From Chromera velia (Eukaryota > Sar > Chromeraceae), in contig JAHBMJ010002255.1 in NCBI GenBank assembly GCA_018398765.1, positions 1 to 20,865 of the forward strand: DNA of 20,865 nucleotides, read 5' to 3'. Position 1 is the stretch's first letter; each line of letters begins with the position of its first letter. This document shows positions 3,399 through 19,351 of the stretch, piece after piece. Under the pieces are notes generated by a model that did no database searches, was not told the DNA's origin, and saw only the letters and a program-made list of their open reading frames with translations. The position numbers and the translations under genes are program-made.

Positions 3399-5314
3399 TC
3401 AGGAGTTGAAGAGGAATCTCAAGTCGTCAGCCGTCAGCTTTGCAATCGACCCCTCCTGGTTCCCCACCGTCTGCACAGACAGACCAATTCGCGCATCCAT
3501 TCACACATCCATCCATTCATTGATTGCTTCACTTACTCCCTTTCTCCTCATTTCTCTCTCACTCACTCACTCCCTCCCTCCCTCACTCACTCACTCACTC
3601 ACTCACTCACTTAACTCAACTGACTTTTCTGACTCACTCATTCAGACGAAGCAAAACGAACAAACGGCAATCCTCGAAGCCGCAGGGCCACTTAAAGCGA
3701 CGACGTGTCAAGCTCAGCTCCATAATCTCCTCTATGTACGGAGATAAATACAGAGAGGCGGCGGCGCATGGGAAGTGAAAAAGTCAAAGCCCTGGAATAT
3801 CGGCAAAGTCGCCACACTAGCTTTCAGAAAAGGACACGCTCTCTTTCTTGAGGCCCGCTGCTTGATAAAAAAAAGTGGAGCTCCAACTGTAATGTCTGAA
3901 GGCAAGCTGAGTCCAATTATTCACAAAAAGACCCATCCCATCCCCCCCACTACCCACCGACCGACCCCATCGAAGACGAGTTGTTTCTTTTCCTGCAGCT
4001 GGAGGATTCTCTCCTCGATTGTGTCCTCTGAGATGAATCTGACACCTGTCACGGGACGGCGCTGCCCGATTCGGTGGGCTCGTTGAATGGCCTGCATGGA
4101 TGGATGAGAAAGGGAATTCAGGAAGAAAGAAGGAGCTGATCAGAAATCAAATAAACGAAGAGCCTTCAAGTCTGTCAGACATTCAACTTGCTCTCTTAGG
4201 GGGAGATTTGATCAAAGCACATCTATCTTCTTGTCCTGTAAGAGACAATAAGTCAGTCGACAGAGGTTCTCACGAAGATAACGTAGTCCAAATCATACGA
4301 AAGAAGAAGACGCTGACTGAGGGACCACACCCAAGGGCGGTGCATGAAAGACGAGAGAGAGAGAGAACTTCTGTAAAAGGAACCCTGGCCCCCTGCCCAT
4401 GCACCCACTCACCTGCATTTCTGTCGCGGGGTTCCACCAGGGGTCCATCAGGAACACGTGGTCTGCTGCTTGAAGGTTCAGTCCCTCCCCGCCTGCCTTC
4501 AGGGAGATCAGCACGCACGTCAGGCTGGGGTCTGTGTTGAACGCGTACAGGATGTTCGACCTGTGTTCGAGCATATTGTAGGGATGGCAACAAAATCAGG
4601 AATACAGAGATTTGACACATGTACTCAAGTAAGACGAACATGCTGACAAAAAACGAAAGCACAAAAATCGGGAAACCACTCTAAGGACTAAGAAACAAAG
4701 GCGACTACAAAGCAGTTCGACCCTCTTTTTTTGCATTCATTGAAACACGCCAAACAGGGTGTCAAGAAAAGCGAAACATTTCAAGACCCGCAGAATGCGA
4801 GGAGCAAAACCGACAGAATCAAGATACTGACCGAGCTTCCATGGTCATACTCCCGACAAGTTTGGCACAGTGCACCCCTCCCTTCTTCAGTCTCCACTCA
4901 ATCAACTCCAGCATCGACGTGAACCTGCTCATGCAGACACGGGGAGGGAGGGACACAGACAGACAGATAGATTCGTCCATGCGGAGAAAAGGAAGAGAGA
5001 GCTGAAAAGAAAGAAGAAGGGATAGGAGGAAAATAATAAGACATGCAAACCGATGACGACGAGATTCGAACAAACAGGAGAGGCACATGCATGACACATG
5101 ACACACCGCTAGGCAGACGGACTGACTGTGAGAAGACGATGGCTTTGCTCTTGGAGTCCTTTTCCCTCATGGCGTCCACTTCCTGGCACAAGGCCTCGAT
5201 CTTCGTGGAGGACCGAAACTCCGAGGCCTTCAGTCGAGACATGATACCCCGAGTCTTCCCTGTTGCTGCGCCCTTTCCTCCCGACTTTCCGTTCCCGTCT
5301 CTCTCGTCGTCGAC
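3399..5314 (-). other. Helicase C lobe (motifs IV-VI) and C-terminal tail (exons 27-31)
   Basis: Exon 27: [10 protein letters not shown] and [10 protein letters not shown]. Exon 28: [16 protein letters not shown] and [10 protein letters not shown]. Exon 29: [20 protein letters not shown] then [13 protein letters not shown]. Exon 30: [20 protein letters not shown] and [13 protein letters not shown]. Exon 31: [16 protein letters not shown], then the TGA. The arginine finger of motif VI is intact. The residue before it, usually Asp in the form D-R-x-HRIGQ, is Gln (Q1855). Exon 26 (5657-5806) is a basic, Ser/Ala-rich linker between RING and this lobe. Confidence 0.96.
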
Positions 5315-5352
5315 CTGCAAGACACACACACACACACACAACACACACACAA

Positions 5353-5390
<38 letters not shown>

Positions 5391-8300
5391 CAAGAGAGTG
5401 CGTGAGTGACAGACAGTCTTTTTGAAAGTACATCGTTTGCAGGTTTGGAGCAGCGAGCGCCCTCACGGCTTTGGAAGATGCGGAAAGAAAAAGGAATCAG
5501 TCCCAGAGATACGAAGGCACGCCGATCAAAAAAGTGAGACGAGACCGGGGAGCGACAGATGTGTAAACAGATGTAGGCAAGCAGCCACTCGCTCACTCAG
5601 ACACACACATACGCACATACATACATTCACACACACACACACACACACACGCAGACCTCTGGCGGGTCCTTGCTGCTCCTGCTGCCTCCTTTCCTGCTTC
5701 CAGCTGCAGAGGCAGATGACGACGAAGGCGAAGGAGCGGACTCCTTTTCCTTCACGCTGCCTCTTCGCCTGCCCAATCGTCCCGCTGCTGCTGCCTCTGC
5801 TTTCACCTGCAGGCAAGAGGTACAGCCGGACGGTTGGTAGAGGAGAAACACTTAGAGGGGGAGGAAATGAGATCAATCACACAAAAGATAGAGGCACATG
5901 ATGCAACCGCAAGAGAAATGGAGACCTGAAAGTGGGCCAGTACTGAAATGCAGATTAAAGTAAAGACAGACAGCTGTGGTTTTGTGCGCATCGTAAATTT
6001 GTAGCTGCATACGATTCAGCGCTCTCAGTCGTGCCTCAAGATTGATTGAGCTTCGCAGCGGAAGGAGAAAAAGAGACATGGAGTGAGAGACAATGTATTG
6101 ACAGAAAGAACAGAGAGGCTAACGGACCACTTCATCCAGTGCGGCCTCCATGTCGCCCCCTGCGCCCCCCTCCTCTTCCCCTTCCTCCTCCTCCTCCCCC
6201 CTCAGAGCAGAGAGGTCTACTGTCAGAGGAGAGTAGCACACAGGGCACCCGAGGTCGGAGCTTTCCGGGGCCGCCTCCACGAAGGAAAGCAGACAGGCAC
6301 GGTGGAAGGCGTGGTGGCACTTGCTCAGGCACAGCTCCTGCACGCACGCATGGTGTTCATACATACGCACACACCTTCAGTTTACAAAGAAGACGGGGCT
6401 GGAAGGGACGAGATTTCGGCCGAAGAAGGCAAAGAGGCAAAAGAACGAACCGCTCCAGACAGACACGTCTTTCATCATTCGACTGACGGACCAACGCACA
6501 GATACACACACCTTCAGGCAAAGAAAGACCGAGCTAGCCAGACTCACCTTTTTTGATTCGATGTCGTCCTGGCAGATCCCGCAAGTCTCGCTCAGATCCC
6601 CAACTGAGAGAGAGAAGCCAACAGAGAAGCATTCAGAATAAAAAAAAAGGGGGGGGCACACACACGCATGAAAATCCCTGTTGCACATGTACGTAAATTA
6701 ACAATCCGGCGTGTCCTTCAACAATCATCACCGAGTCACCTGCCGCACGTGCAAGCCTTTATCTAGCCATGCTACCGGAGCATCTATCTACCCACGCGAA
6801 CCCGACACTAGCTTGCCCTTATGCAACCAAAGACCCGCACAGAGACAGAATTTGACCCTCACAGTTCTTCTTACGAGATGCTGACTGCTTGCTTTAAAGT
6901 TTTTGCTATCCGGTCCCACGTTCACGCATCGAACAGGTGTGTCTGTCACTCACAGGGTTTGCATGCACTCGAAGAGATCTAGATCCCTCCCTCCCGGCCT
7001 ACCTGCGGGTCTAGATGCTGAGGGCAGTTGAGGAGCGTCCCCCCTCTGGCCGAGGTTGCCGTGAATGATCAAATACGGGTGGTCAACAGCCTGCAGACAT
7101 CAGTCAGTCAACCGGTCAGTCGAGTGGTAGGTATATGATTTCATGAACTTCCGGATTCTTTCCTTCCCGAAGCTTTCGACGTCGCCGGTTTCTGTTCATT
7201 CAAAGGACCGACGGACCTGAACAGAAAAGAGGGGAGAACCGAGAAAAGACATTCGAACGCACAGGAACAGAAACAGAATGGCCTCCCAGCAAATCGACGC
7301 ATGCACGTACACATGCACACAACCAAAACCTCCTGCAGGCCCTGTCGAGATGCCAACCAGAGACCTCCCACCCCTCCTCCAACGACGACACCCCTCTCTC
7401 GAGTGACCAATGGGTCATACCCCTTTCTTCGTTCACAGCAATCCTCCGACACATGCAGGATTGAACGCCTACCTGTCGGAGTCTGGAGAGAAGGTCAAAG
7501 ATGTGCGCGTAGTTGTGGAGCACCGTGCCCTCGTCTACGTACGCGCTCTGCAGGAAACAGGGGAGAAACATATACGAAATGCACAAGAGGTATAACGATG
7601 TCCAGCATACGGATGAAAGTGGACGGGATGCCGGCTTGCACTGCCGATGCAGGTAGAGGACACGAGCACAAGGCGACACCCGGTTGGCGGAATGAGCAGT
7701 TCCACGAAGATACAATCCACTACCCTACCCCCCGAACCACACAACCATCAACAAACTGACAAATGCGGTTTTTGTCTGCATGAACAACGCCTCGTAGAAG
7801 TCTCTCTCCTCTGCACTCAGAGCGTCTCTCCTGATCCGCACAGTCAGGGGAGGGAGCTTGACGTCCTCAGCCCTCTCCACCTTCGTTCGACTGCAAGCCT
7901 CAAAATGCACAGTAGAGATTCTTTCACAGAGGCAGAGAGGAGTAGACAGATGAGAAGGTCTCCTTTCAGACAGACCGGGCAACGTATACATGCTCACTGA
8001 CAAACTGCCACCTGAAGTGCCCGCGGATATCTTTTTCCTCCAACCAACGAAGTCTTCGTGGAAGATTCCCGAGCAATCGAATCTGTCCACAAATCTGCCC
8101 CAGTAAAGAGAGAAATGTATGGTATGGTATGGTATGGTTGTACATCCCTCTTTGCGATTTTCATGTCGGTGATGTTAGAGTAGGTCGGTGATGTTAGAGT
8201 AGGTCGGAAGCATGTGATATTAGCTGGTTTATATTAGAGGATAAGTAGTACCTTTGTGTATTATGGAGAAGTGTATCCATCATTGAGAAGCAAAAATATT

Positions 8301-10064
8301 TCTTTAGATTTACGAATATCACCCAAAAAACAAAATGGAGAACAACAAGAAGAGGACAAAGAGAGATTCCAAGAAAAAAACAAGGCAGAATGCTGCCCAG
8401 AAACGATAAAAAAAACGAACCAACACACAGACCGACGAACCCACCGCAGAAGGATCTTCTCCAGGACGTCATTCCTCAAGTATGTCATCGCGACCTTGCC
8501 CTCTCCGGCGTATCTGCTCTCATACATGAACGAAGAGGCGATTCCACAATTGAACGCACAGAATCGACAAAGAAGGAGAGACCGAAAACGAAGAGAGAAA
8601 TGGAGGGGACGACGGCAGGGCTCTATGGAGGAGCAGGCGCACGCATCTTCCTCCCTTCGTCAACAGACAACAAATCCGGGAGACAAAAATGGAGGCATGC
8701 AGGCAGAGCCCCACAAGCCCCCCTCTCCCCTCCTTCACACACACATCCAGAGACCCACCCGTAGTTTTTGATCGGAGTGACCACCTTCCTGCAAGCAAGA
8801 TGCATGGCAGGCAGACGCGCAGTGTACCTGAGAGGTCGAAGAGTTCTCTTCCCAAATAGCTTCGGCATTTGCATCATCATCATAGACACAACCTTCCATC
8901 TGTCTGCCCCTCTCGGAGCCAAATAATCTTCATCACACACAACATCGACGCACGCAGATTGATCGAGGGGACCTCTGACTGAAGAGAAGAAGAGAAGAAA
9001 CAGACTGACACTCAGCCAGGGAATCCCTCAAATTTACGCCTCCACATTGAGTGAGTGAGTGAGGACGGGAGTCGTGATCGACAGAGATCGAATCCCCTTT
9101 TCGCTTCTCCTTGCCTACCCTGAGAGGACACTGACCGATTGAAGTAAGAGAAGTGACTCATGCGTGTGTGCCCGCACTTGAGACAGTACCTGCGTGCATG
9201 TTCACGTTGTTGGTAGCACACGCATAGAGGCGGGCAGGCAAGAATTGATAGCAAGTTCTGAGCGTCGAATCAATCGTTCGGCAAAGAGTCGTCCATGTTT
9301 TCTTCTTTTCCTTCCCTGGAAAAGAAACTCTTTCTCAATGCCTTTTCTGCTACAGAACAAAGAAGGGACGGGGGAGCGAATTCGAAAAAGGGTGAAAGGA
9401 CTGGCTGGATGAACAGAGCTCACTTCCCATCGATAGCCCCCTCACTCACACCCTCACAACTCGTGTCTCCTTTTCTTTTTCTTTTCACCTCATGCCACCA
9501 AAAGGGGCCCACGAATATCCCCTCATTCCCGCAAGAGCCTCCCTCCCTCACCGATTGTCCTCGAAACGGAAATGCAGAGATCGGCACCCGCACCCCTTTT
9601 TGTTGCAGAAGTAGAAGGCGTACGGGTGGAACCTGAGGGATACATGGAGAAAATTGGGAGAGGGAAGATTTCTTTGTCATGAATTGGACTTCTCATAGTG
9701 ACCCTTGACGTATTCTTCTGCACTTGAGAGTCGAGAGTAGAGAAGCAGAGCGTGACAGCGACAAAGAGACAACAAAGAAAGGAGGTGTCAGAAAGAGCGA
9801 ACCATTTGCCCGCACTTTTGATTTTGAACCCAAGACACGGACATGACACCCACAACAGAACAATTCTCAACGACTCCCAGTTGTTCCCTCACTCTGCCAG
9901 TGCTTGTCCTGTTAATCTGCCTGCCTGCCTGCCTACGTGTGCTCAATCTACGTGCAACGCCCTCATCCCTCGATGTCCCTGGCGACTTCGAAGGCATTCC
10001 ACACCGTGCTCACGGAGCAAGATAGACCAACAGATGGAGTAACTCCACACACACACACCTCCAC

Positions 10065-10123
<59 letters not shown>

Positions 10124-10818
10124 AATGGAAAGAAAAGAGAGGAAGAGAGAGGGAGAGGGGGAGAGGGAGAGAGACCTGAGGAAGCGCACGAGTGAGTAGA
10201 GTTCTCCCACACGGTTCTGAAGGGGGGTCCCCGTCAGGCACCATTTTGCACGGGTGGACTGGAGGGAGTACACCGCCTGCAGAGAAGGAAGGAAGGAAGG
10301 AAGAGTGCAGTCCCCCCGAATTTTCATTTCACGTTTTTTTTGCACGAAAAGAAAAGGGAAAGAGAGAGACGCATTGGAGAGAGACGCGGTGGAGAGAGAC
10401 ACATCTCAGATCAATGCACAAGCCTACAGAGCACACGAATGGAAGGAGAAAGGAAGGAAAGAATGAATGCATGCGGGATGGCACGTGTGTCGACAAGGTC
10501 AACACGCCCCTTTTCTCTCTCTTACTGTTGTCGACTCCACTTTCCATAAAAGAAGGATTCAGAAAGCAGCAATTCGCAATAAGCATGGCTCCTATTCCCC
10601 CCCCCCGGTAGGGCCACAAGGGGCCAACCAAGCACAAAAGAGACCGACGAGACCGGAAGAAACCCGCCTTCAAACCCGAAGCATGCAACCGACCAACAGG
10701 AGAGTTTGACTCCTGATGCAATACCCGCCCTTGTCCCCCCTCTTTCGAACAGAAGGCACACACACCCGTCCGGTGGACCTTCTTTTATACGGGCACAGAG
10801 AACTGTATGAATGTGAAA

Positions 10819-10849
<31 letters not shown>

Positions 10850-11986
10850 CTTGGCGGTCGATGTCGTTCTCGACTTGATGCGATGTGCCTCGTCGAGGAT
10901 GATGCGCTGCCATCTGCAGACAGACCGAGAGAGGAATTCCTCTTCCTCATGCACTCCCTCTCATTCCACGGAACCGACCCGAAGAAAGTACAGATGGGAT
11001 GGGACCCCCACAGCTCTCTCTCCCGACAGGCGAAAAAAAAAAAAAAACAAGTGCAAGAAATGATATTGCCAGTAGAGGGATGGCAGGGACAGAATATTCC
11101 GTGAGAAGAGAGAGGCGATTCTCTTTTAGCGACGGAGGCGAGAACTGTTTGCATGAGGCCAGCGGAGAGGCCGACCAGATCAAGAGCTATCTATGGACAC
11201 GAATTCACCCCCCTCGCCGAAAGGCACCCTTCCTTCCTTCCTTCCTTCCTTCCTGCCCAGCTGGCTGACTTGACTGAGTGCAGGAGGGACTTCTTCAACG
11301 ACACTCCTCCCTCGGCCTCTGAGTGGCTCAGGTCTGCATCTCCTCTGTCGAATTCAGCGCCTTCGCCTGGAAGGAAGAATACATAGAGACAGACAAACAC
11401 ACAGAGAAACAGTCGGTTCAAGACGAAAACAAAGAGTGATGCGGAAAGCAAATTTGAGACAGAGATTGAAATACCACCAAAAATGAACGGGAACGGGCTT
11501 CCAGAACGCTCCTCGTCGACGCAAGAAAAGCAATAACACTTACAAGCAAAGCGAAACAAAACAAAATAGGACATAAAACATGCAACCCAAAAATCCGACC
11601 TGCAAACCAACCTGCAGCCGTTGCCTCTGCCATCGCCTTGGCCCTTTTTTCGGCTTTCTCCCTTCCCTTCTCCTTTTCATCTTCCATCCCCTCCTCTTCC
11701 TCTTCTTTCGCCCCCTTTGCGCCCTTGCTCTTGCTGACACTGCCTCCGGAGCGAGCTCCGCCTTTCTGCACACAGAAACACACGCACACACACGTCCGCT
11801 TCCACTCGTGCTTGATGGAACTCTCACGAGCAGTACATCTTCCTCTGCAGCAATTCTCTCTGCAAGATTTTCTTTCTCTGTTCATGCGTCCACTGGCGGT
11901 CTTTGCATGGCCTCTCCCTGCCGTTTTGTATGGGCCTCTCTCTGTCCTCGTGCTGCATGCTGTCTGCGTGTCCGTCCCCCACGACC

Positions 11987-12023
<37 letters not shown>

Positions 12024-12255
12024 GTTGCGCCTTCCTTCCAACCAACAAGTAGGTCCTTTCTCCACCCCGCCATCTCTACTCCACCCGAGTCACTTGCCTT
12101 GTTTGTTCTCTTCCGGTCGTCCCCCGAGTCACTCATTTCTCCCTCAGAGGATTCCGAAGAGGAAAACAGAGAGCTCATGCCGCTCTGCACACACAGTCAT
12201 ACACAAGCAAAGACACACACAAACACACACACACACATACACACATACACACATA

Positions 12256-12305
<50 letters not shown>

Positions 12306-15300
12306 GGAAGTGGAACTAAGGAAAGAAGGCGTTTGTCCGCCAATTGAGGCTTACTGCAAGCAACCCAACGGAACGGTCGATCAGAGGCTCCTCCCCTCAT
12401 CACTGAATCCCTCTCCTTCCTGTCTTCTCCTGTCTTGCCCTCTATTCACTGGCCCATAAAAGCAGAGAGAAGAAAATCCGATCATGGATCTGTCCTCTCT
12501 CCCTCCCACCTCTGGCTAGAAAGGTCACTCTAAACAAGACTGCAAGACAGACAAGCTTACAGCTCCCTTTCTTCCTCTCCGGCTGAGACTGTCTGCCTGA
12601 CGCACGCACCTCTGAGTCGTCGTTTGAGGGTGCGTACTCTGAGTCGCTCTCGCCTGTCCTTCCCTTGGAGCTTCTCGAGCGACCGGAGGAGGAAGCCGAC
12701 TTTTTGGCGCCCTTCTTGCTCGGCTTCTTTGTGGCACCCTTCTGCAGACACGAGGGATTTGCATTCCGCTCTAGAGCCGCAAACGCATATGCACACACCT
12801 CATTTACGGGTCGGTATTAACAAATGGAGATAGAAAAACCGTAGGTACACCCAGACAGACAGCACAGGCCCAAGCGAAGGAATAAGGAGGAGAGGGGACA
12901 GGAGAGCAAACTCAGATCGTCACTTCAGAGGATGGGAGGGAGACACACTTCACTCAATTAAGTTGTCTGGCTGTGTCTGTCTCACTGAGAAGTTCATTTG
13001 TTCCCCTCTCTCTCTCCCCATCTCTCTGCACTGCCTGTCGCTCTGCACAGTTGACCTCCAATCTGACTGCATAGACTTTTCTGTCCCTGCTTTTCATTAC
13101 TCACGGACCCATGCAGGTCTCTCTCAGTTGTTTCGACTCTCTCTTTTCCCTGTGCGGCTTTTCTTTCCGACCTTCTTAGCGCTTGCCGCCTCCTTTTTCT
13201 TCTTGGGCATGGGTGCGGCCTTTTTGCTCTTCTTCTCAGGAGCCTCGTCGCCCTCTTTCTCTGCAGCAGCAAGACCCTTCCCCTTCGCCCGCTCGCTGCG
13301 CACCCTCAGAACCTGCAAGAGAGAGAACATGATAGAGAGCCCAAATTGCGACAACACGAATAACAGAAGATTCGAGTCAAAACAGAGCGGAGCCACAGGG
13401 GACACGAGAGACGAAAAAGAGAAAAAGAAGGTGATTGCAGAAGAATTGAGAGACAAGAACGACACAAGCAAGTACACACGGCCACTCAAATGGACCATGC
13501 AACCCTTCAGCTTGAGACGCGGTTCCTCAAGGAGGACCATGCAAACAAAAAACATAGAGGCGGAAAGAATTGAGCGACACAAAATAAAAAAGAGCGATCG
13601 TGAATGGGAGGGACCTTCAAGGAACAAAGGAAGAAAGAAGCTAACAGACAAACCTTCTTCGTTCGGGATGTGCTTTCCTCTTCCTCGTCGTCAGAAGAAT
13701 CTGAAGAGGCCGAGTCATCTTCTGAATTCTCAAACAAATCCTTCGAGAAGGACACACGGGAAGAACCCGATGCAGCCAGACGACCGCTTCTTCTTGAGGA
13801 CTCTCTCTGACTGCTGTCGTCCTCTTTCTCTTCCTCATCTCCTTCGTCCATGTCTACATCTTCATCTTCTTCTTTCCCCCCCTTTTTCGGATTCTTTGCA
13901 CTCTTCTTCGTGCCTGCTTTTTTGGTTCTCTTCGAAGGCCTCTCGATCTCTTCCTCTTCCTCATCATCATTTTGGTTTCCGTCTTCCTCATCTGGTTCAA
14001 GGAACGCGACCTTCTTTTTCTTCTTCTGTGACTCAGTCTGCTTCTTCTTTTTGATCATCGGCACTTTTTTTGTGCCTCCTTTCTTCTTCCCCCCATCCTT
14101 TTCTTCTTCCTCTTCTCCCTCTGCATCGACATCGATGGCTTCGTCAGACGGAAACGCACGACGGAGACGTCTAGAGGCTCTGCTGCTAGTGCTGCCGTCT
14201 CCTCCCTCTCCCCCCTCTGCTGCTGCTGCTGCGGGAGCGGCTGCGGGAGCTTGTGAGGGGGGCTGCTTGCGTCGCTTCTGGTGCTTCTTTTCGTCTTCCT
14301 CTTCTGGCTCTTCTGGTGGAAAGAGGAAGGCAGAGAGACGGTCAACAAGGGCGTTCTTTGTGCCCTCTGTTTCGAGTCCTGCGCGCTTTGCCATCTCCCT
14401 CAGCTTCTCGACCTTCTCCTTCATCAGCCCCGTCTTGGAAACACCAAACTCACGCAGCAACACCGCACGGAAGGCAGCATCAGCGGAGGAGGAATCGTCA
14501 TGATCTGCACCTGTGCCTGTGCCGGGGGGTGTTGGAGACTCAGGCGGCGACCTCTCAGAGACGGATCCCTCATCGGAAACGTCTGCCTTCACCTTCCCGC
14601 CTTTCCCCTTCCCTCTTGATTTGTCTCTCTGAGCACGAGAGGGGCCAGCTGAAGCGGCGGCGGCGGCCGCTGCTGCTGCCCCGCCAGCACTAGCCGAAGA
14701 AGAAGAGAGAGAGATCACTGAGTTCACAGAAGAGGCCGCCGCCCCCTTCCTTGCTTGCCCCTTTTTGGGTGCCCCCTTGGCCCCCTTCTGGGACGCGGCA
14801 GCTCGCCACTCCAGCAGCAGGGAAGCCGCAGCATCGGCGTCGCCTCTCGTCGCCTGGAGGGGAGGTAGAGAGAGATAAAAAGGAGGAACACGAAAAGAAG
14901 ATTCGAAAGAGGGGTGTTCAAAGGAAGGAGACGGGAAAGAGTGAATGAATCGACAGCTGGTTGCATGGATCGATTCGGTCGGTGGGTGGCTGGATGGGAG
15001 TTTCCTCTGAGCAAAGGAAGGGTTCAAAGAACGAAAAAAAGAGAGGCGGAAAGGGAGTAGCCTTGAGACAAGAGGAGAAAGAGATGGACAGAGAAACACT
15101 TGGCATTTCGGTATGCTTATGCTTAATTTCATGTATCGCCTCTGTCCTCAGTCCCTGACTCCTTGCCCTTTCTTCCCCACAATCCAAACACCAATGCTAC
15201 CCCACCATGCACATATGCCACAGACATACCTACCGTCAGTGCTGTACGCACAGGGCCTTCATCGAATCCCATCATGACTAAAGAGACCACCGACGCGTCG

Positions 15301-18300
15301 ATCTGCTTCATTCAAACAGAAAAAGAGAAAAAAATTGACGACCATGGGAGGAGGAGGAAAGATGCGCAGGAAGGCAGACAGGCAGACAGGCACAACCACG
15401 CACACAGAGGCAGAGAGAAACAGGATGATCGAAAGAAAGAGAGAAATGAATGTGATCATGTGGGTTTGTCCGAGTGTCTTCCTGTCCGCCTGACCTCAGC
15501 CTCTTCTGCCTCGATTTCCATCTCGATTTCCTCTTCGTCATCCCCGTCTGCTCCGTTGCCCTTTCTCTTCTTCTTTTTGTTCTTTCCGACTGGCTTTCCC
15601 TTTGCTTTTGCTTTCGGTTTCGCTTTCTCACTCACACCCTTCCCCTGCTTTCCCTTCTTCATCTCATCTACCGCCTCTTCCTCTTTGTCCTTCCCTTCTG
15701 CGTCCCCACTAGCAGACGAGGACGAGGACACTTCTGCCGCGCCGCTGGCAGCAGAACGACCCTGGGCACGGAGGGCCCTGTCAGAGACGGAAGAGGAGGG
15801 GGCGGCAGTGGGGGCATCCGAAGGGGCAACGGAGCGCCTCGATGATGAGGCCTTCCCCTTCGGCTTCCCCCCCCCTGCCTTGTTCCCCTTCCCACCCTCT
15901 GCCTTCTTTGCGTTTTCTCCTGACACTTCCACCTCCTTTTCCTCCTCTTCTCCTCCCATCACCACATCGGAAGAAGAGGCAGCAGCGGCAGCAGACGATG
16001 AAGATGAGGAAGAGGAAGACAAGGCGCCTTCCTTCTTCCCCTTCTTCTCCTGCTTGGCAGTCTCTGTCTCCTTTTCACTTTCCTCCTCTGTCTCTTTCTT
16101 CTGCTGTTGCTGCTCCTGTCTGCTCTTCCTAGACTGGTACCAGGGGACAGCGCCGTTGGGAAGTTCGTTCTCTCTGTTGGCTTTCTGCACACACACACAC
16201 ACACATGCATGAATACAGACGACGCAGGGCCACTGTTCATGCGCACGTTCCCTGTCAAAATCCGTGGGCCTCTTCGTTTTTGTGTGTCAAGAGGGTATTT
16301 ATCAAACCCAAACACAAATCAACGTGCAGCAGAATGAACGAACGCGACGTCGGACAAGGGATGCACCCAAACAACACACGGACAAGGGATGCAACCAAGC
16401 AACACACGGACAAGGGATGCAACCAAACAACACACGGACAAGGGATGCAACCAAACAACACACGGACAAGGGATGCAACCAAACAACACACGGACACGGG
16501 ATGCAACCAAACAACACACGGACAAGGGATGCAACCAAACAACACACGGACAAGGGATGCAACCAAACAACACACGGACAAGGGATGCAACGAAACAACA
16601 CACGCTTGTCTTCTCATCTTGTAGTTTGTCTTGCTTTACACTCTCTCGCTCATGAAGACTGTGTGCAATCCTTTTCTTCGGTTTCCCATTTTTCCTTCTT
16701 GGTCGCTCATCCCCGTTCCCTTTCTGTGCTTACGCAGTCAAACAGACAGAGGCAGACAGACAGAAAGACGGACAGACGAACCCTCATGATCTCTCTGTAC
16801 ACGTTCGTGATGGTGGGCACAAAACTTCTCTCCCTCTCGGGGACGGAGGCAGCTGCGGCAGCTGCAGAGGACCTCTTTCTCTTCCTCCCGCTGCTGCCCT
16901 CTGCCTGTTCCTCTGCCCCGGGTCCTGTCGCGTCTGCGTGCGTCACGATGTTGAGGGTCTTCATTGCCTTCTTTGCGGCCTCCTGGTTCTTCTTCTGCGT
17001 CTTCTTCTGCTTCTCTGTGCGCTCCGCATTCGGTCCACAGAAATACCTCAGGTGGACCTTCAGCTTGTCTGGCAGGAACAATCGTTGACAGTATTTGCAC
17101 TGCTTTTTCTGTTTGTTCACCTCTCTCCTGAAGTCCTGTTCTACTGTTTGGTAAGTGGTGATAACCACGTCTGCCTTCTCAAGCTCTCCTGAGAGGAGAC
17201 CTCGGTACTGACCGTGGTAGATCAGAACAGAGAGAGCCCCTGGCTTGGTGAACTTCTCAATTTCCATCTTCCACTGGAGCACGGTGGCCAGAGGAGAGAC
17301 AACCAAAGTCTTTGCACGTCTCATCCCACTCTCCCCTTCCTCTTCATCGTCCTCATCACTCTCCTCTGCAGCAGCCGCAGCAGCAGCTGCGCCTCTCCCT
17401 CCTCTCCGCTGCAGAGCGGAAGAAGAAGAGGACGAGAACGAGGAAGAAGCCGCTGCTGCTGTGTTGTTGTTGCGTTCCTCCTCCTCCTGCTTCTTTGCAA
17501 GGAGCAAGGACACTGCCTGGATCGTTTTGCCCATCCCCATCTCATCTGCCAAAATGCCTCCTCTGACAACCCCCTCCTCTTGTCTGCACATCCATGCAAG
17601 GCCTTCTTCCTGAAAAGGCAATAGAGGCACAAGCAGACTGTCGGGAGCCTTCCTTCTCTCCATCGGCTCTTTTCTCTTCACAAGAGATTGCAAAGGTTCC
17701 CCCCCCTCCCCCTCCTCACCCTCCCCCCCCTCAGGCTCATCCTCCTTCCGCAACACCTCCAGCACAGACTCCCTCTGCTCCTCCTCCAGGTCCTTCCAGC
17801 CAAAGCAGGTCTTCCCGATAGTGTTCACACCCACACCCAGAGTCAGAAGGGCGGCGCGACAACACTGAGGATGATACCTGAACAAACAGAGAGGCAGAGA
17901 GGGAAAGAGTGAGAGAGAAGGGAAAAAAAAAAAAGAAGTCAGGAGGAGGAGCGATGAGATGAAAAAGGACCCCCAAGAGAGACTTCCCCTCCCGATGGAC
18001 CGAAAGAAAAAAAGCTGCGTGCCTGCACGGCCTGCCTGGGCGAGGGGTCTGCAGTGCCCATGACCCCCCCCTTTTGGTTCACAGACTCACCCACTCACTC
18101 ACTCACTCACCAGCAGATGATGGCACCAAAGCAACCACGGGGGTCCTGCGTGGAAGAAGATGGATAGATGGATCGATAAATAAACAAATGCATTGTTATG
18201 TGAGTCAGTGGGAGAAGAAGTCACTTGATTGGCTGACTGACTGATTGATTGGTCAATTCAGAGAAGGATTCGGGTGGGCACATTCTCGCATGGCAAGGAG

Positions 18301-19351
18301 GGGGGAATTGAAATCTCACACGGCAACAGGATCGCAGCGGAGACAGCGGGTGCGTTCCTCCTTCTCTGCTCTTGCCTCTGTGTCGCGATGCCCGGACATA
18401 CAAATTCAACAAACAAACAAACAAACAAACACACAAACAGCCAGCAAGCTAGTCCGTCGGGCAGAGATCCCCTCCTTTCTCTTCTTTTTTCTTCTCTTCT
18501 CTTCTTTTCCCTCTCGGGGGGCATTCATCTCTGACAAGGTTGGCTGCTTAGGAGGGAGAACTCACGGACTGCACGACATGATCAAGTCAAGCGACCAAGC
18601 GAATAAATGACACCGACAGAGGGAGAGAAGGAAAAAAAAAAAGACGAACCTTGAGGGGAAATCCAAGTCGCAGCTTTTTCTTCTCACACGCTGACCCGCA
18701 CCCTCTGCACTTGCTCATGTCTGCAGAAAGGCACATAAGGATTGCAAGAGAGAGACCGGTGACTCCTTCGCTCCACCTTCTTGTGCGCGTGACGCCACAA
18801 AAGCCTCACTGGATGCGCCCGTTGTCTACACGCTTTGTGGGCTCTTGGACATCATGCACCGCCTCCCTGGATTGAAAAGAAGGTAAAAACAAATGCCCAA
18901 GGAGACGGAAGTTGAATACTTGCAGAGTCGTCATAACTGCCTGATTGACTGACTGGTGGTCGCAATGTTGGCCACAACCCTGACGTCCTCCAGTCTTTTC
19001 TTCTTCTTGGGTTCCAGTCTCTTCACCTGCAGTGAGCAAGAGAAGCCAGAAGAGATATGTATCGCACACACGGAGTCTTTCTCTCTGCGATTCCTTCTCT
19101 TTTTTCACTGCCGTCTCGTCTCGCGACCCTGTACCGACCTCTCCTTTTTTTCAGACCTTCTTACAACTCTCCCCCCTGCCCCTTCCTTTCTCCCTCGCTT
19201 ACACCTATTTCAAGCATAGAGCCAGGCGGACCTTATCCTCAGGGATCCACTCCCTGTCCTCCGGGTCGTACAGGGCGTCCTGCAGCATCCCGGGGGGCAG
19301 TTTGGGGCCCTTGGAGAGGAACCCCGCAATTTCGTCGGGAATGTCCGTCAT
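3399..19351 (-). CDS. RAD16: Rad16-like SNF2 translocase / RING E3 ligase, 31 exons
   Basis: Spliced gene of about 1,917 residues. Exons in order of transcription (plus coordinates): 19232-19351, 18950-19026, 18810-18866, 18650-18713, 18111-18145, 16782-17877, 15495-16184, 15234-15302, 13654-14853, 13172-13312, 12610-12741, 12098-12184, 11612-11765, 11270-11366, 10850-10913, 10176-10276, 9552-9632, 9136-9189, 8759-8788, 8445-8513, 7761-7890, 7473-7547, 7003-7090, 6548-6603, 6128-6337, 5657-5806, 5127-5314, 4832-4924, 4413-4560, 3966-4091, 3399-3470. All phases join without a stop. The ATG is chosen because an in-frame TAG lies five codons upstream (19364-19366) and no earlier ATG intervenes. 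Family: Rad16/HLTF-type SNF2 ATPase with RING, known in yeast for global-genome nucleotide excision repair of non-transcribed DNA, in the nucleus. Seen: motif I DEMGMGKT (229-236), motif II DEAH (1347-1350), motif [16 protein letters not shown] 1578-1623, [19 protein letters not shown]. An NLS-like RKRKR lies at about 449-453. The protein is roughly twice the length of plant or yeast Rad16 because of added domains and Ser/Ala/Glu/Lys-rich insertions. Least certain: the exon 3/4 junction and which exon 13 donor is used. Confidence 0.93.
3559..3611. repeat. (CACT)n tetranucleotide repeat in intron 30
   Basis: An actcactc run interrupted by ccctccctc, within intron 30 (3471-3965), the last intron of the gene. 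Confidence 0.9.
5322..5390. repeat. (CA)n(GA)n compound microsatellite at the exon 27 acceptor
   Basis: On the coding (minus) strand this reads (TC)n then (TG)n, ending a few bases before the acceptor TTGCAG at 5315. It probably supplies the polypyrimidine tract of intron 26. Confidence 0.9.
6236..6583 (-). other. RING finger, C3H2C3 form (exons 24-25)
   Basis: Zinc ligands: C1578 and C1581 (TCGICQDD), C1596, H1598, H1601, C1604 ([11 protein letters not shown]), C1620 and C1623 (CPVC). The fifth ligand is His (RING-H2 type), whereas from memory yeast Rad16 has Cys here. RING fingers of this family recruit E2 enzymes and ubiquitinate repair substrates. The domain is split by a 210-bp intron (6338-6547) at phase 0. 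It is followed by LTVDLSAL, as in the family, then by a Glu/Gly-rich tail. Confidence 0.95.
7003..7890 (-). other. Rad16 core between lobes: NYAHIFDLL block (exons 21-23)
   Basis: Exon 21 encodes [20 protein letters not shown] then [12 protein letters not shown]. Exon 22 encodes [20 protein letters not shown]. Exon 23 begins [12 protein letters not shown]. These are the conserved segments leading to the RING in every Rad16 and HLTF/Rad5 protein. Exon 22 is a 75-bp phase 0-0 exon, so skipping it would keep the frame but delete the conserved helix. Confidence 0.95.
8118..8207. repeat. Two short tandem repeats in intron 20
   Basis: A ggtat pentanucleotide run at 8118-8138, then a 19-bp unit (gtcggtgatgttagagtag) present 2.3 times at 8165-8207. 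Both are within intron 20 (7891-8444). Confidence 0.9.
8445..9632 (-). other. Second Cys-rich zinc loop and linker (exons 17-20)
   Basis: Residues 1395-1472. Exon 17 gives [19 protein letters not shown] (C1404, C1409, C1411). Exon 18 gives [18 protein letters not shown] (C1424, C1427, H1429). Exon 19 gives [10 protein letters not shown] and exon 20 gives [16 protein letters not shown]. This corresponds to the PY-x-YFC-x2-CDC zinc loop of Rad16 proteins and the following TPIQ-x-HG and LLRR-x-K segments. Exon 19 is only 30 bp, the shortest in the gene. Introns 16-20, on either side of and between these exons, are all phase 2. Confidence 0.92.
10047..10175. repeat. (CA)n/(GA)n purine-rich tract at the exon 16 donor
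   Basis: A CA run followed by about 110 bp of GA/GATA-type purine repeat. It abuts the exon 16 boundary at 10176, so on the minus strand the intron begins GTCTCTCTC and continues as a pyrimidine tract. Confidence 0.9.
10176..10913 (-). other. SNF2 motifs II and III (exons 15-16)
   Basis: Exon 15 encodes [20 protein letters not shown] (DEAH at residues 1347-1350, Walker B). Exon 16 encodes [20 protein letters not shown] then VRFL. Both are near-identical to plant RAD16 in the same order. They are separated by a 573-bp intron (10277-10849) made mostly of low-complexity sequence. Intron 15 opens with a (GT)n(GA)n run directly at the donor. Confidence 0.96.
11228..11254. repeat. (CCTT)n repeat in intron 14
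   Basis: About six copies of ccttccttc-type repeat, 16 bp from the exon 14 donor boundary at 11270. Confidence 0.9.
11990..12021. repeat. (GTCT)n tetranucleotide repeat in intron 12
   Basis: About eight uninterrupted copies of tgtc, inside intron 12 (11766-12097), the GC-AG intron. Confidence 0.92.
12211..12305. repeat. (CA)n(GA)n compound microsatellite upstream of the exon 12 acceptor
   Basis: In coding sense a (TC)n(TG)n tract with tatg variants, ending about 25 bp before the GTGCAG acceptor of exon 12 (12184/12185). Confidence 0.9.
14322..14421 (-). other. SAP DNA-binding domain (exon 9)
   Basis: Residues about 881-913, entirely in exon 9. The core reads [20 protein letters not shown] followed by [11 protein letters not shown]. 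This is the SAP helix-turn-helix pattern: L-x3-(A/C)-x2-(A/R)-G-L-x3-G-x-K-x2-LV-x-RL. SAP domains bind AT-rich or scaffold DNA and occur in repair proteins such as Rad18, PIAS and plant PARP. Just upstream, the segment [18 protein letters not shown] may add an extra helix. It is followed at once by an acidic [12 protein letters not shown] tract. Its presence inside a Rad16 helicase lobe is unusual. Confidence 0.82.
14806..15302 (-). other. UBA-like ubiquitin-binding domain (exons 8-9)
   Basis: Residues 714-752, split by intron 8 (14854-15233). Exon 8 gives [20 protein letters not shown] and ALT; exon 9 begins [16 protein letters not shown]. The pattern, hydrophobic residues then MGF, then V-x2-AL-x-ATRGD, then AAASLLLEW, is the classic three-helix UBA signature with the MGF loop that contacts ubiquitin. 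Family knowledge: UBA domains bind mono- or polyubiquitin. In a protein with its own RING, a UBA could read the protein's own products or ubiquitinated PCNA or histones; this is inference. About 39 residues, the normal UBA length. Confidence 0.87.
16353..16604. repeat. 28-bp minisatellite, exactly nine copies
   Basis: Nine head-to-tail 28-bp units begin at 16353, 16381, 16409, 16437, 16465, 16493, 16521, 16549 and 16577. The unit starts gacaagggatgcaacc and ends aacacacg. Five units (3, 4, 5, 7, 8) are identical; units 1, 2, 6 and 9 each carry one substitution. The array lies wholly in intron 6 (16185-16781). Long open frames on both strands across it arise because three units make 84 bp; they are not genes. 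Confidence 0.97.
17031..17636 (-). other. SNF2 helicase lobe 1, first part (motifs Q, I, Ia, Ib) and C2HC finger
   Basis: Residues 199-400, all in exon 6. The block [17 protein letters not shown] is the usual SNF2 entry, followed by [17 protein letters not shown] (Walker A) at about 17516-17566, [19 protein letters not shown] and [17 protein letters not shown] Ser/Ala/Asp/Glu-rich insert of about 50 residues (249-300) separates motif I from motif Ia. After motif Ib comes a C2HC finger (C378, C381, H393, C398; 17037-17099), reading CKYCQRLF then HLRYFCGP, the hallmark that links this protein to plant-type RAD16. The lysine of the Walker A motif is present, so ATPase activity is expected. Confidence 0.95.
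17757..18866 (-). other. PARP-type zinc finger (exons 3-6 of the RAD16-like gene)
   Basis: Residues about 70-158. Visible: [20 protein letters not shown], then GAIICWYHPQCC, then [10 protein letters not shown]. The C-x2-C at 87/90 and H-x2-C at 120/123 match the CCHC zinc ligands of PARP1 and DNA ligase III fingers, as does the WYH preceding the third ligand and the later GW-x-L-x(2-3)-E segment. In those proteins this finger binds DNA nicks and double-strand ends. Placing it at the N-terminus of a Rad16 protein suggests recruitment to strand breaks or gaps; that role is inference. The domain is split by four introns. The stretch before the first Cys depends on the uncertain exon 3/4 junction. 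Confidence 0.85.
18411..18437. repeat. (CAAA)n repeat in intron 4
   Basis: About six copies of acaaacaa within the 504-bp intron 4 (18146-18649). No hidden exon recognised in that intron. Confidence 0.88.

Follow-up and report, generated by a model that had tools for sequence, protein, structure and literature searches.

Organization of the locus

The window, by which we mean the whole 20,865-nt stretch of Chromera velia DNA that was analyzed, is the entire contig C2243 of a 177.8-Mb, 4,040-contig assembly and contains no Ns. Most of it is covered by one predicted minus-strand gene that starts with an ATG at position 19351 and ends with a TGA at 3399 (Table 1). The first-pass annotation of this DNA had described a 1,917-residue protein joining a PARP-type zinc finger (zf-PARP), a UBA, a SAP and a RING to an SNF2 motor. 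Our rebuilt gene is close to that model, with the length now set at 1,899 residues, and all five modules were found by Pfam in one frame. That frame is continuous with no internal stops, and the motor motifs, the zinc ligands and the signature residues of the UBA and SAP are intact.

The gene model was built from anchoring peptides, and splice sites were picked by phase. Introns have GT-AG borders in 28 of 29 cases, the exception being the GC-AG intron that follows exon 11, with GCAAGT as its donor; CAG is the ending of every one of the 29. Their lengths range from 192 to 597 nt (median, 342), and seven of the 29 begin with GTCA. With exons 5 and 14-30 as the training set, a codon model gave the introns a mean score of -0.42 over the three sense frames, with a maximum of 0.19. 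Exons 1 and 2 were retained because their scores in the predicted frames, 0.60 and 0.58, exceed that maximum. Two short exons (<70 nt each) scored lower in the predicted frame than in an antisense frame, namely exon 4 (-0.15 vs. 0.47) and exon 7 (0.02 vs. 0.18); both contain recognizable domain sequence. The gene model is least secure at its 5′ end. Translation from Met66, which would remove the first loop of the zinc finger, was considered and set aside, since the coding scores of exons 1 and 2 favor the upstream start. An extra exon near 18885, with an 11-residue peptide, was likewise dropped; exon 2 joins exon 3 with correct phase through a GTCAGT donor, and this direct join also aligns the start of the finger with PARP1.

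Repeats were listed in 19 rows for the window. The largest is a tandem array of ~9 copies of a 28-nt unit, 97% alike, in intron 5 (positions 16351-16604); exons 5 and 24 contain two short arrays. A simple-repeat artifact was discounted, as none of the 19 rows overlaps a domain-matched exon stretch. Open frames cross the 28-nt array on both strands. No tRNA was found in a scan of the window with the bacterial-code setting, and eight other open frames of the window matched no Pfam family at E ≤ 0.01.

Table 1. Features of the predicted gene, in window coordinates.
Feature	Residues and exons	Position	Strand	Basis
Whole gene, Rad16-type protein	1,899 aa; 30 exons	3399..19351	-	Continuous frame, one terminal stop
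PARP-type zinc finger	aa 61-141; exons 2-5	17754..18966	-	Pfam, 38.9 bits; PARP1 match
Exon 5: second half of PARP finger, first half of motor lobe 1, C2HC finger	Walker A, aa 211-218; exon 5	16782..17877	-	Gene model, profiles
Small C2HC finger, after motif Ic	aa 359-377	17046..17102	-	zf-C2HC_2, 22.2 bits, below cut-off of 27
Insert carrying UBA and SAP	About 850 aa; exons 6-13	11270..16184	-	Gene model, composition
UBA, MGF loop and terminal LLL	aa 696-734; exons 7 and 8	14806..15302	-	Pfam, Mud1 match
SAP	aa 865-895; exon 8	14323..14415	-	Pfam, genome profile search
Motif II, DEAH	aa 1329; exon 14	10850..10913	-	Gene model, PDB alignment
Cysteine knuckle, putatively Rad16-type, preceding the motor block that follows motif III	Exons 16-17	9136..9632	-	Alignments
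RING-H2 finger, between motor lobes	aa 1559-1605; exons 23-24	6236..6586	-	zf-RING_2 profile
Helicase_C lobe, motifs V and VI	aa 1729-1843	4065..5203	-	Pfam, PDB alignment
C-terminal tail (16 residues)	Exon 30	3399..3470	-	Gene model

Evidence for a single gene

Exon 5 encodes motif Ic, Walker A and the latter of the two zinc-binding halves of the PARP finger. The UBA and SAP are flanked by exon 5, with the first half of motor lobe 1, and exon 14, with motif II. Two separate genes are therefore unlikely, and the PARP finger in particular could not belong to another gene unless the motor did too. Across insert exons 6-12, the predicted frame ranked highest of the three sense frames in all seven (codon scores of 0.02 to 0.79) and highest of all six frames in six of the seven, the exception being exon 7. 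Skipping exons 6-12 (2,473 nt) would break the frame, whereas skipping exons 6-11 (2,319 nt) would keep it. On the minus strand, stop-free runs reach 546 codons at most, in exon 8, whereas none in 200 first-order Markov simulations went beyond 340. An antisense run of 406 codons opposite exon 8 is, however, also longer than any simulated one, so run length is poor evidence alone and is partly explained by base composition. Taken together, exon sharing, phases and codon scores favor one gene, in agreement with the single-gene reading of the first-pass annotation.

The PARP-type finger

As an isolated segment, the finger scored 38.9 bits with zf-PARP (E = 1.6e-9), against a Pfam cut-off of 39.3, which is a database threshold and does not by itself define the finger; the score in the whole protein was 32.6 bits. 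All four zinc ligands are intact (Cys69, Cys72, His102 and Cys105, in the pattern C-x2-C-x29-H-x2-C), and the frame of the finger is continuous over four exons. When zf-PARP segments were shuffled, the three scanned of the four made matched no Pfam family at E ≤ 1. The closest PDB chains were those of PARP1, with a whole-chain E-value of 7.2e-10 in which both fingers are summed and 1.3e-5 for the finger-2 stretch alone; single PARP1 finger-2 chains matched at E-values of about 2e-6. Alignment with PARP1 finger 2 gave 20 identities in 48 positions and a score of 94, well clear of the shuffle maximum of 50.5. Scores were 60.5 against PARP1 finger 1 and 62.5, 33 and 48 against three other finger loci of the same genome. 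The protein thus resembles PARP1 in its C-x2-C-x29-H-x2-C finger, nearest to finger 2, and differs in having a single finger. None of WGR, PADR1 and the ADP-ribosyl transferase domain (PF00644) was present among the 19 Pfam families listed for the protein.

DNA contacts were compared at the 14 positions of human PARP1 finger 2 that are named as such in PMC3094755, mapped through the alignment with the PARP1 finger. Five are identical here (Lys134 = Lys78, Arg138 = Arg82, Ile154 = Ile97, Trp157 = Trp100 and Tyr158 = Tyr101) and two are similar (Ser120 to Thr64, Leu151 to Phe94). The other seven are changed (Lys119 to Thr63, Arg122 to Met66, Lys131 to Ala75, Gly135 to Lys79, Lys141 to Phe85, Lys142 to Pro86 and Arg156 to Cys99), which sets the finger apart from that of PARP1. 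In the mutants described in that source, binding fell significantly with single changes of PARP1 at Lys119, Ser120, Arg122, Arg138 or Trp157 and to a lesser degree with those at Lys134; no binding of the test DNA remained in the double mutants Lys141Ile/Lys142Ile and Lys131Ile/Gly135Asp (PMC3094755). Leu151 and Ile154 of PARP1 are described as touching the DNA end and Arg122 as entering the minor groove (PMC4678113).

The fold of the finger and its end-facing hydrophobic pair are likely to have been kept. The basic patch appears largely gone, and it is doubtful that the finger is a strong break sensor. Both pairs of residues altered in the PARP1 double mutants are changed, so that break binding may be weak, altered or absent. 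The finger keeps its zinc ligands, but the break-sensing role first proposed for it is made doubtful by the identity of only five of the 14 named contacts and by the methionine that takes the place of Arg122.

The UBA, the SAP and the insert that carries them

The UBA, one of a class of domains that frequently bind ubiquitin, scored 20.6 bits as an isolated segment (E = 4e-4; cut-off, 22.4) and 14.6 bits in the whole protein; the same segment gave 22.3 bits with UBA_7 (E = 1.2e-4; cut-off, 27). It has the MGF loop and the leucines of helix 3. Its top PDB relative was the UBA of Mud1 (E = 0.0015), and four of four shuffled UBA segments matched no Pfam family at E ≤ 1. The SAP reached 33.4 bits in isolation against a cut-off of 23.9, 23.8 bits in the whole protein, and 28.5 bits, above the cut-off, in the genome search. 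The core pattern of this DNA-binding type of domain is intact, and the top PDB relative of the SAP was 1zrj, the E1B-55kDa-associated protein 5 (E = 0.0013). We attribute the drop in the scores of the small domains within the whole protein to low-complexity linkers. Among the domain calls made initially, those of the SAP, RING and SNF2 are supported by Pfam, and those of zf-PARP and the UBA fall just under the curated cut-offs.

Both domains are carried on a long insert of low complexity in motor lobe 1, between motifs Ic and II. About 980 residues separate these motifs, and the protein would thus be a natural example of a Rad16-type motor with such a separation. The K/E/S/A/G content is 64% in aa 381-1316, compared with 39% in aa 1317-1899.

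Following motif Ic, a small C2HC finger at 17046-17102 on the minus strand is succeeded by a 13-residue stretch. Its PDB matches were weak C2H2 ones (best E = 0.018), and a six-frame search that does not handle introns found a single match to the segment in the 177.8-Mb assembly, on this contig. Plant Rad16 presumably has a segment like this finger and the 13 residues after it, and we take the location of the insert, just beyond that finger, to fit Rad16 as well. The segment may be an under-described hallmark of Rad16 proteins.

The motor, the RING finger and family placement

In the whole protein, Pfam gave 200.4 bits for SNF2 and 87.5 bits for Helicase_C. The RING finger scored 38.2 bits with RING_2 as an isolated segment (cut-off, 27.3), and its ligands (Cys1560, Cys1563, Cys1578, His1580, His1583, Cys1586, Cys1602 and Cys1605) form a C3H2C3 set. 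NCBIfam returned four distant Snf2 models, far below cut-off. The C-terminal 585 residues matched Rad5 best in the PDB, at 201.7 bits with the next at 133.5, among the best 60 of 72 matches. No chain named Rad16 was present among those 60, and Rad5 may therefore rank at the top merely for want of a closer entry. The initial observation that a RING inside SNF2 echoes Rad5/HLTF and Rad16 agrees with the position of the RING between the lobes and with this best match.

The cysteine knuckle includes about 32 residues that are unmatched in the Rad5 alignment (at 6l8n residue 517). Its Cys/His columns appear to be common to two Rad16 sequences, with 47% and 55% identity. A knuckle without a Rad5 counterpart points to Rad16, and we treat it as a lead and not as proof. 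The C-terminal tail, LTxxDLxFLFN, is one that we take to be like that of yeast Rad16. Overall, the motor places the protein with Rad5/Rad16, and membership in Rad16 itself is probable.

Searching the assembly in six frames, with introns not handled, we found that the part of the query from the knuckle to the RING matched this contig alone, with 10 of the 13 matches; the remaining three, on contigs C505, C2269 and C3221, fell in the generic part from motif II to motif III. The gene would thus be the only Rad16-type gene detected in the assembly. HIRAN was absent among the Pfam families listed for the protein, and no HIRAN match was obtained when the assembly was searched in six frames at E ≤ 0.001 with introns not handled, the control being matched in one of 14 genomes. 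A Rad7-type treble-clef profile had no matches in the assembly, and its control likewise matched nowhere. A Rad4 profile matched contig C462 at 35.4 bits, above cut-off, so a damage-recognition gene of nucleotide excision repair is probably present. Outside this genome, in a search for Rad16 relatives, 36 stretches of prokaryote genomes and 15 of IMG/VR matched a pattern, none of which was confirmed by tblastn. Alignment scans gave generic Snf2 relatives, of which 80 of 108 from prokaryotes and 80 of at least 330 from IMG/VR were kept; these had 25-54% identity over parts and bacterial or viral titles.

Comparison with known proteins

Like Rad16/Rhp16 of yeast, Arabidopsis and Tetrahymena, the predicted protein has an Snf2 motor split by a RING, and it probably shares with Rad16 the knuckle after motif III and the C-terminal tail motif. 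The domains named for the Rad16 proteins of yeast, fission yeast and Arabidopsis are SNF2, a C3HC4 RING and helicase C (PMC10454142), and Tetrahymena Rad16 is classed by a RING between SNF2_N and HELICc (PMC9786623). The zf-PARP, UBA, SAP and long insert are additions here, and the RING is C3H2C3 in contrast to the C3HC4 form given for yeast (PMC10454142). With Rad5/HLTF the protein has in common a RING inside the Snf2 motor, an N-terminal accessory domain and the best PDB match; it differs in carrying a PARP-type finger and no HIRAN, and in possessing the knuckle after motif III. The combination of RING, SAP and a ubiquitin-binding type of module also recalls Rad18, a RING-zinc finger-SAP protein without a motor. 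That echo, pointed out in the first-pass annotation, extends to the type of module; the module here is a UBA and not a zinc finger, and the Snf2 motor places the protein with Rad5/Rad16.

A RING inside an Snf2 motor is the usual plan of Rad16/Rad5, and the novelty of the architecture, first credited to all five modules, therefore lies in the three that are added. Among the open-access literature matches listed (titles and starts of abstracts), none described a PARP finger, UBA and SAP together in Rad16 or in any other Snf2 protein, and zf-PARP, SNF2 and Rad16 together yielded nothing in the open-access papers searched. In a figure legend on the RING ligases of P. falciparum and yeast, the PARP finger and UBA are not among the domains given (PMC2408969).

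Proposed function

We interpret the gene, with a probability of roughly 0.55, as encoding a translocase and ubiquitin ligase of the Rad16 type to which modules for binding DNA and ubiquitin have been added. The motor would use ATP to move along double-stranded DNA and would have a RING ubiquitin ligase built in; proteins of this kind open chromatin during global-genome nucleotide excision repair. The PARP finger and SAP could add grip on DNA, and conceivably favor DNA that is nicked, gapped or distorted. By analogy with the family, the motor would track along DNA and loosen nucleosomes, the RING may ubiquitylate a nearby repair or chromatin protein, and the UBA may then retain the enzyme, bound either to ubiquitylated chromatin or to itself. 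Yeast Rad16 acts at damage together with partner proteins. A PARP-type finger, SAP and ubiquitin-reader type of domain built into Rad16 would show how sensing, movement and ubiquitin steps can be combined within a single polypeptide, in which their coupling could be studied. The all-in-one break sensor and ubiquitin writer-reader envisaged at first is possible on these predictions, with the residues of the finger partly against it.

The three additions could instead be real and nearly neutral baggage on an ordinary Rad16, contributing at most a generic affinity for DNA and neither damage sensing nor ubiquitin reading. The biased composition of the insert, the scores of the UBA and finger below the curated cut-offs, and the seven changed contacts, including both residue pairs at which double mutants of PARP1 lose binding (PMC3094755), are all consistent with this. 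Drift would, however, be expected to erode the four zinc ligands, the MGF loop and the SAP core, all of which are intact, and the finger reaches its near-threshold score of 38.9 bits in frame across four exons. We consider this explanation unlikely, although it is the strongest of the competitors to a translocase-ligase with working additions.

A more specific proposal, which we hold to be distinctly improbable, is that the PARP-type finger docks the Rad16-type motor on nicks or gaps, as HIRAN does for HLTF, and that the RING and UBA write and read ubiquitin there. If it were true, single-strand-break sensing could be linked directly to the chromatin opening of excision repair in this lineage, or a separate damage-recognition partner could be replaced.

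Still less probable is a fork-remodeling ligase of the Rad5/HLTF type in which the PARP finger stands in place of the HIRAN end-reader. The best PDB match to Rad5, the lack of HIRAN profile matches in the assembly at E ≤ 0.001 (introns not handled) and the location of the finger, N-terminal of the motor like HIRAN, would all suit such a protein. The knuckle, which Rad5 does not have, argues against it, as does a separate motor fragment on contig C505 that is Rad5-like by eye; the best match itself carries less weight given that no Rad16-named chain is among the best 60 of the 72 PDB matches.

Least probable of all is that the model merges a Rad16 gene with a UBA-SAP gene nested within one very large intron that would run from exon 5 to exon 14. 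In favor of this, the UBA and SAP are confined to exons 7-8 and the 2,319 nt of exons 6-11 could be skipped without loss of frame. Against it, the strand is identical and the phases compatible throughout, the loss of all 2,473 nt of exons 6-12 breaks the frame, the splice sites of the insert are of the type seen in the rest of the gene, its exons mostly reach similar codon scores in frame, and the zf-PARP is inseparable from the motor in exon 5.

Other loci in the genome

Additional loci with related domains were observed on other contigs. At C867:30620-31726 (L002 565-1671, plus strand), a RING of 32.4 bits and a weak PARP-type finger of 27.3 bits (cut-off, 39.3) are joined by a long acidic linker; no Snf2 motor was among the Pfam matches of that frame. 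Contig C158 (L001 568-1851, minus strand) encodes a PARP-type finger of 41.4 bits, above cut-off, in the N-terminal part of an open frame otherwise without assignment, and on C1479 (L003 849-1355, minus strand) an open frame of 168 aa matches the PARP-type finger at 32.7 bits, less than the cut-off. The Snf2 fragment on C505 (L008) adjoins a long run of N. On the minus strand of C2201 (L022), a SAP is followed by a stretch that by eye resembles the PADR1/third zinc region of PARP1, which suggests a separate, plant-like PARP1.
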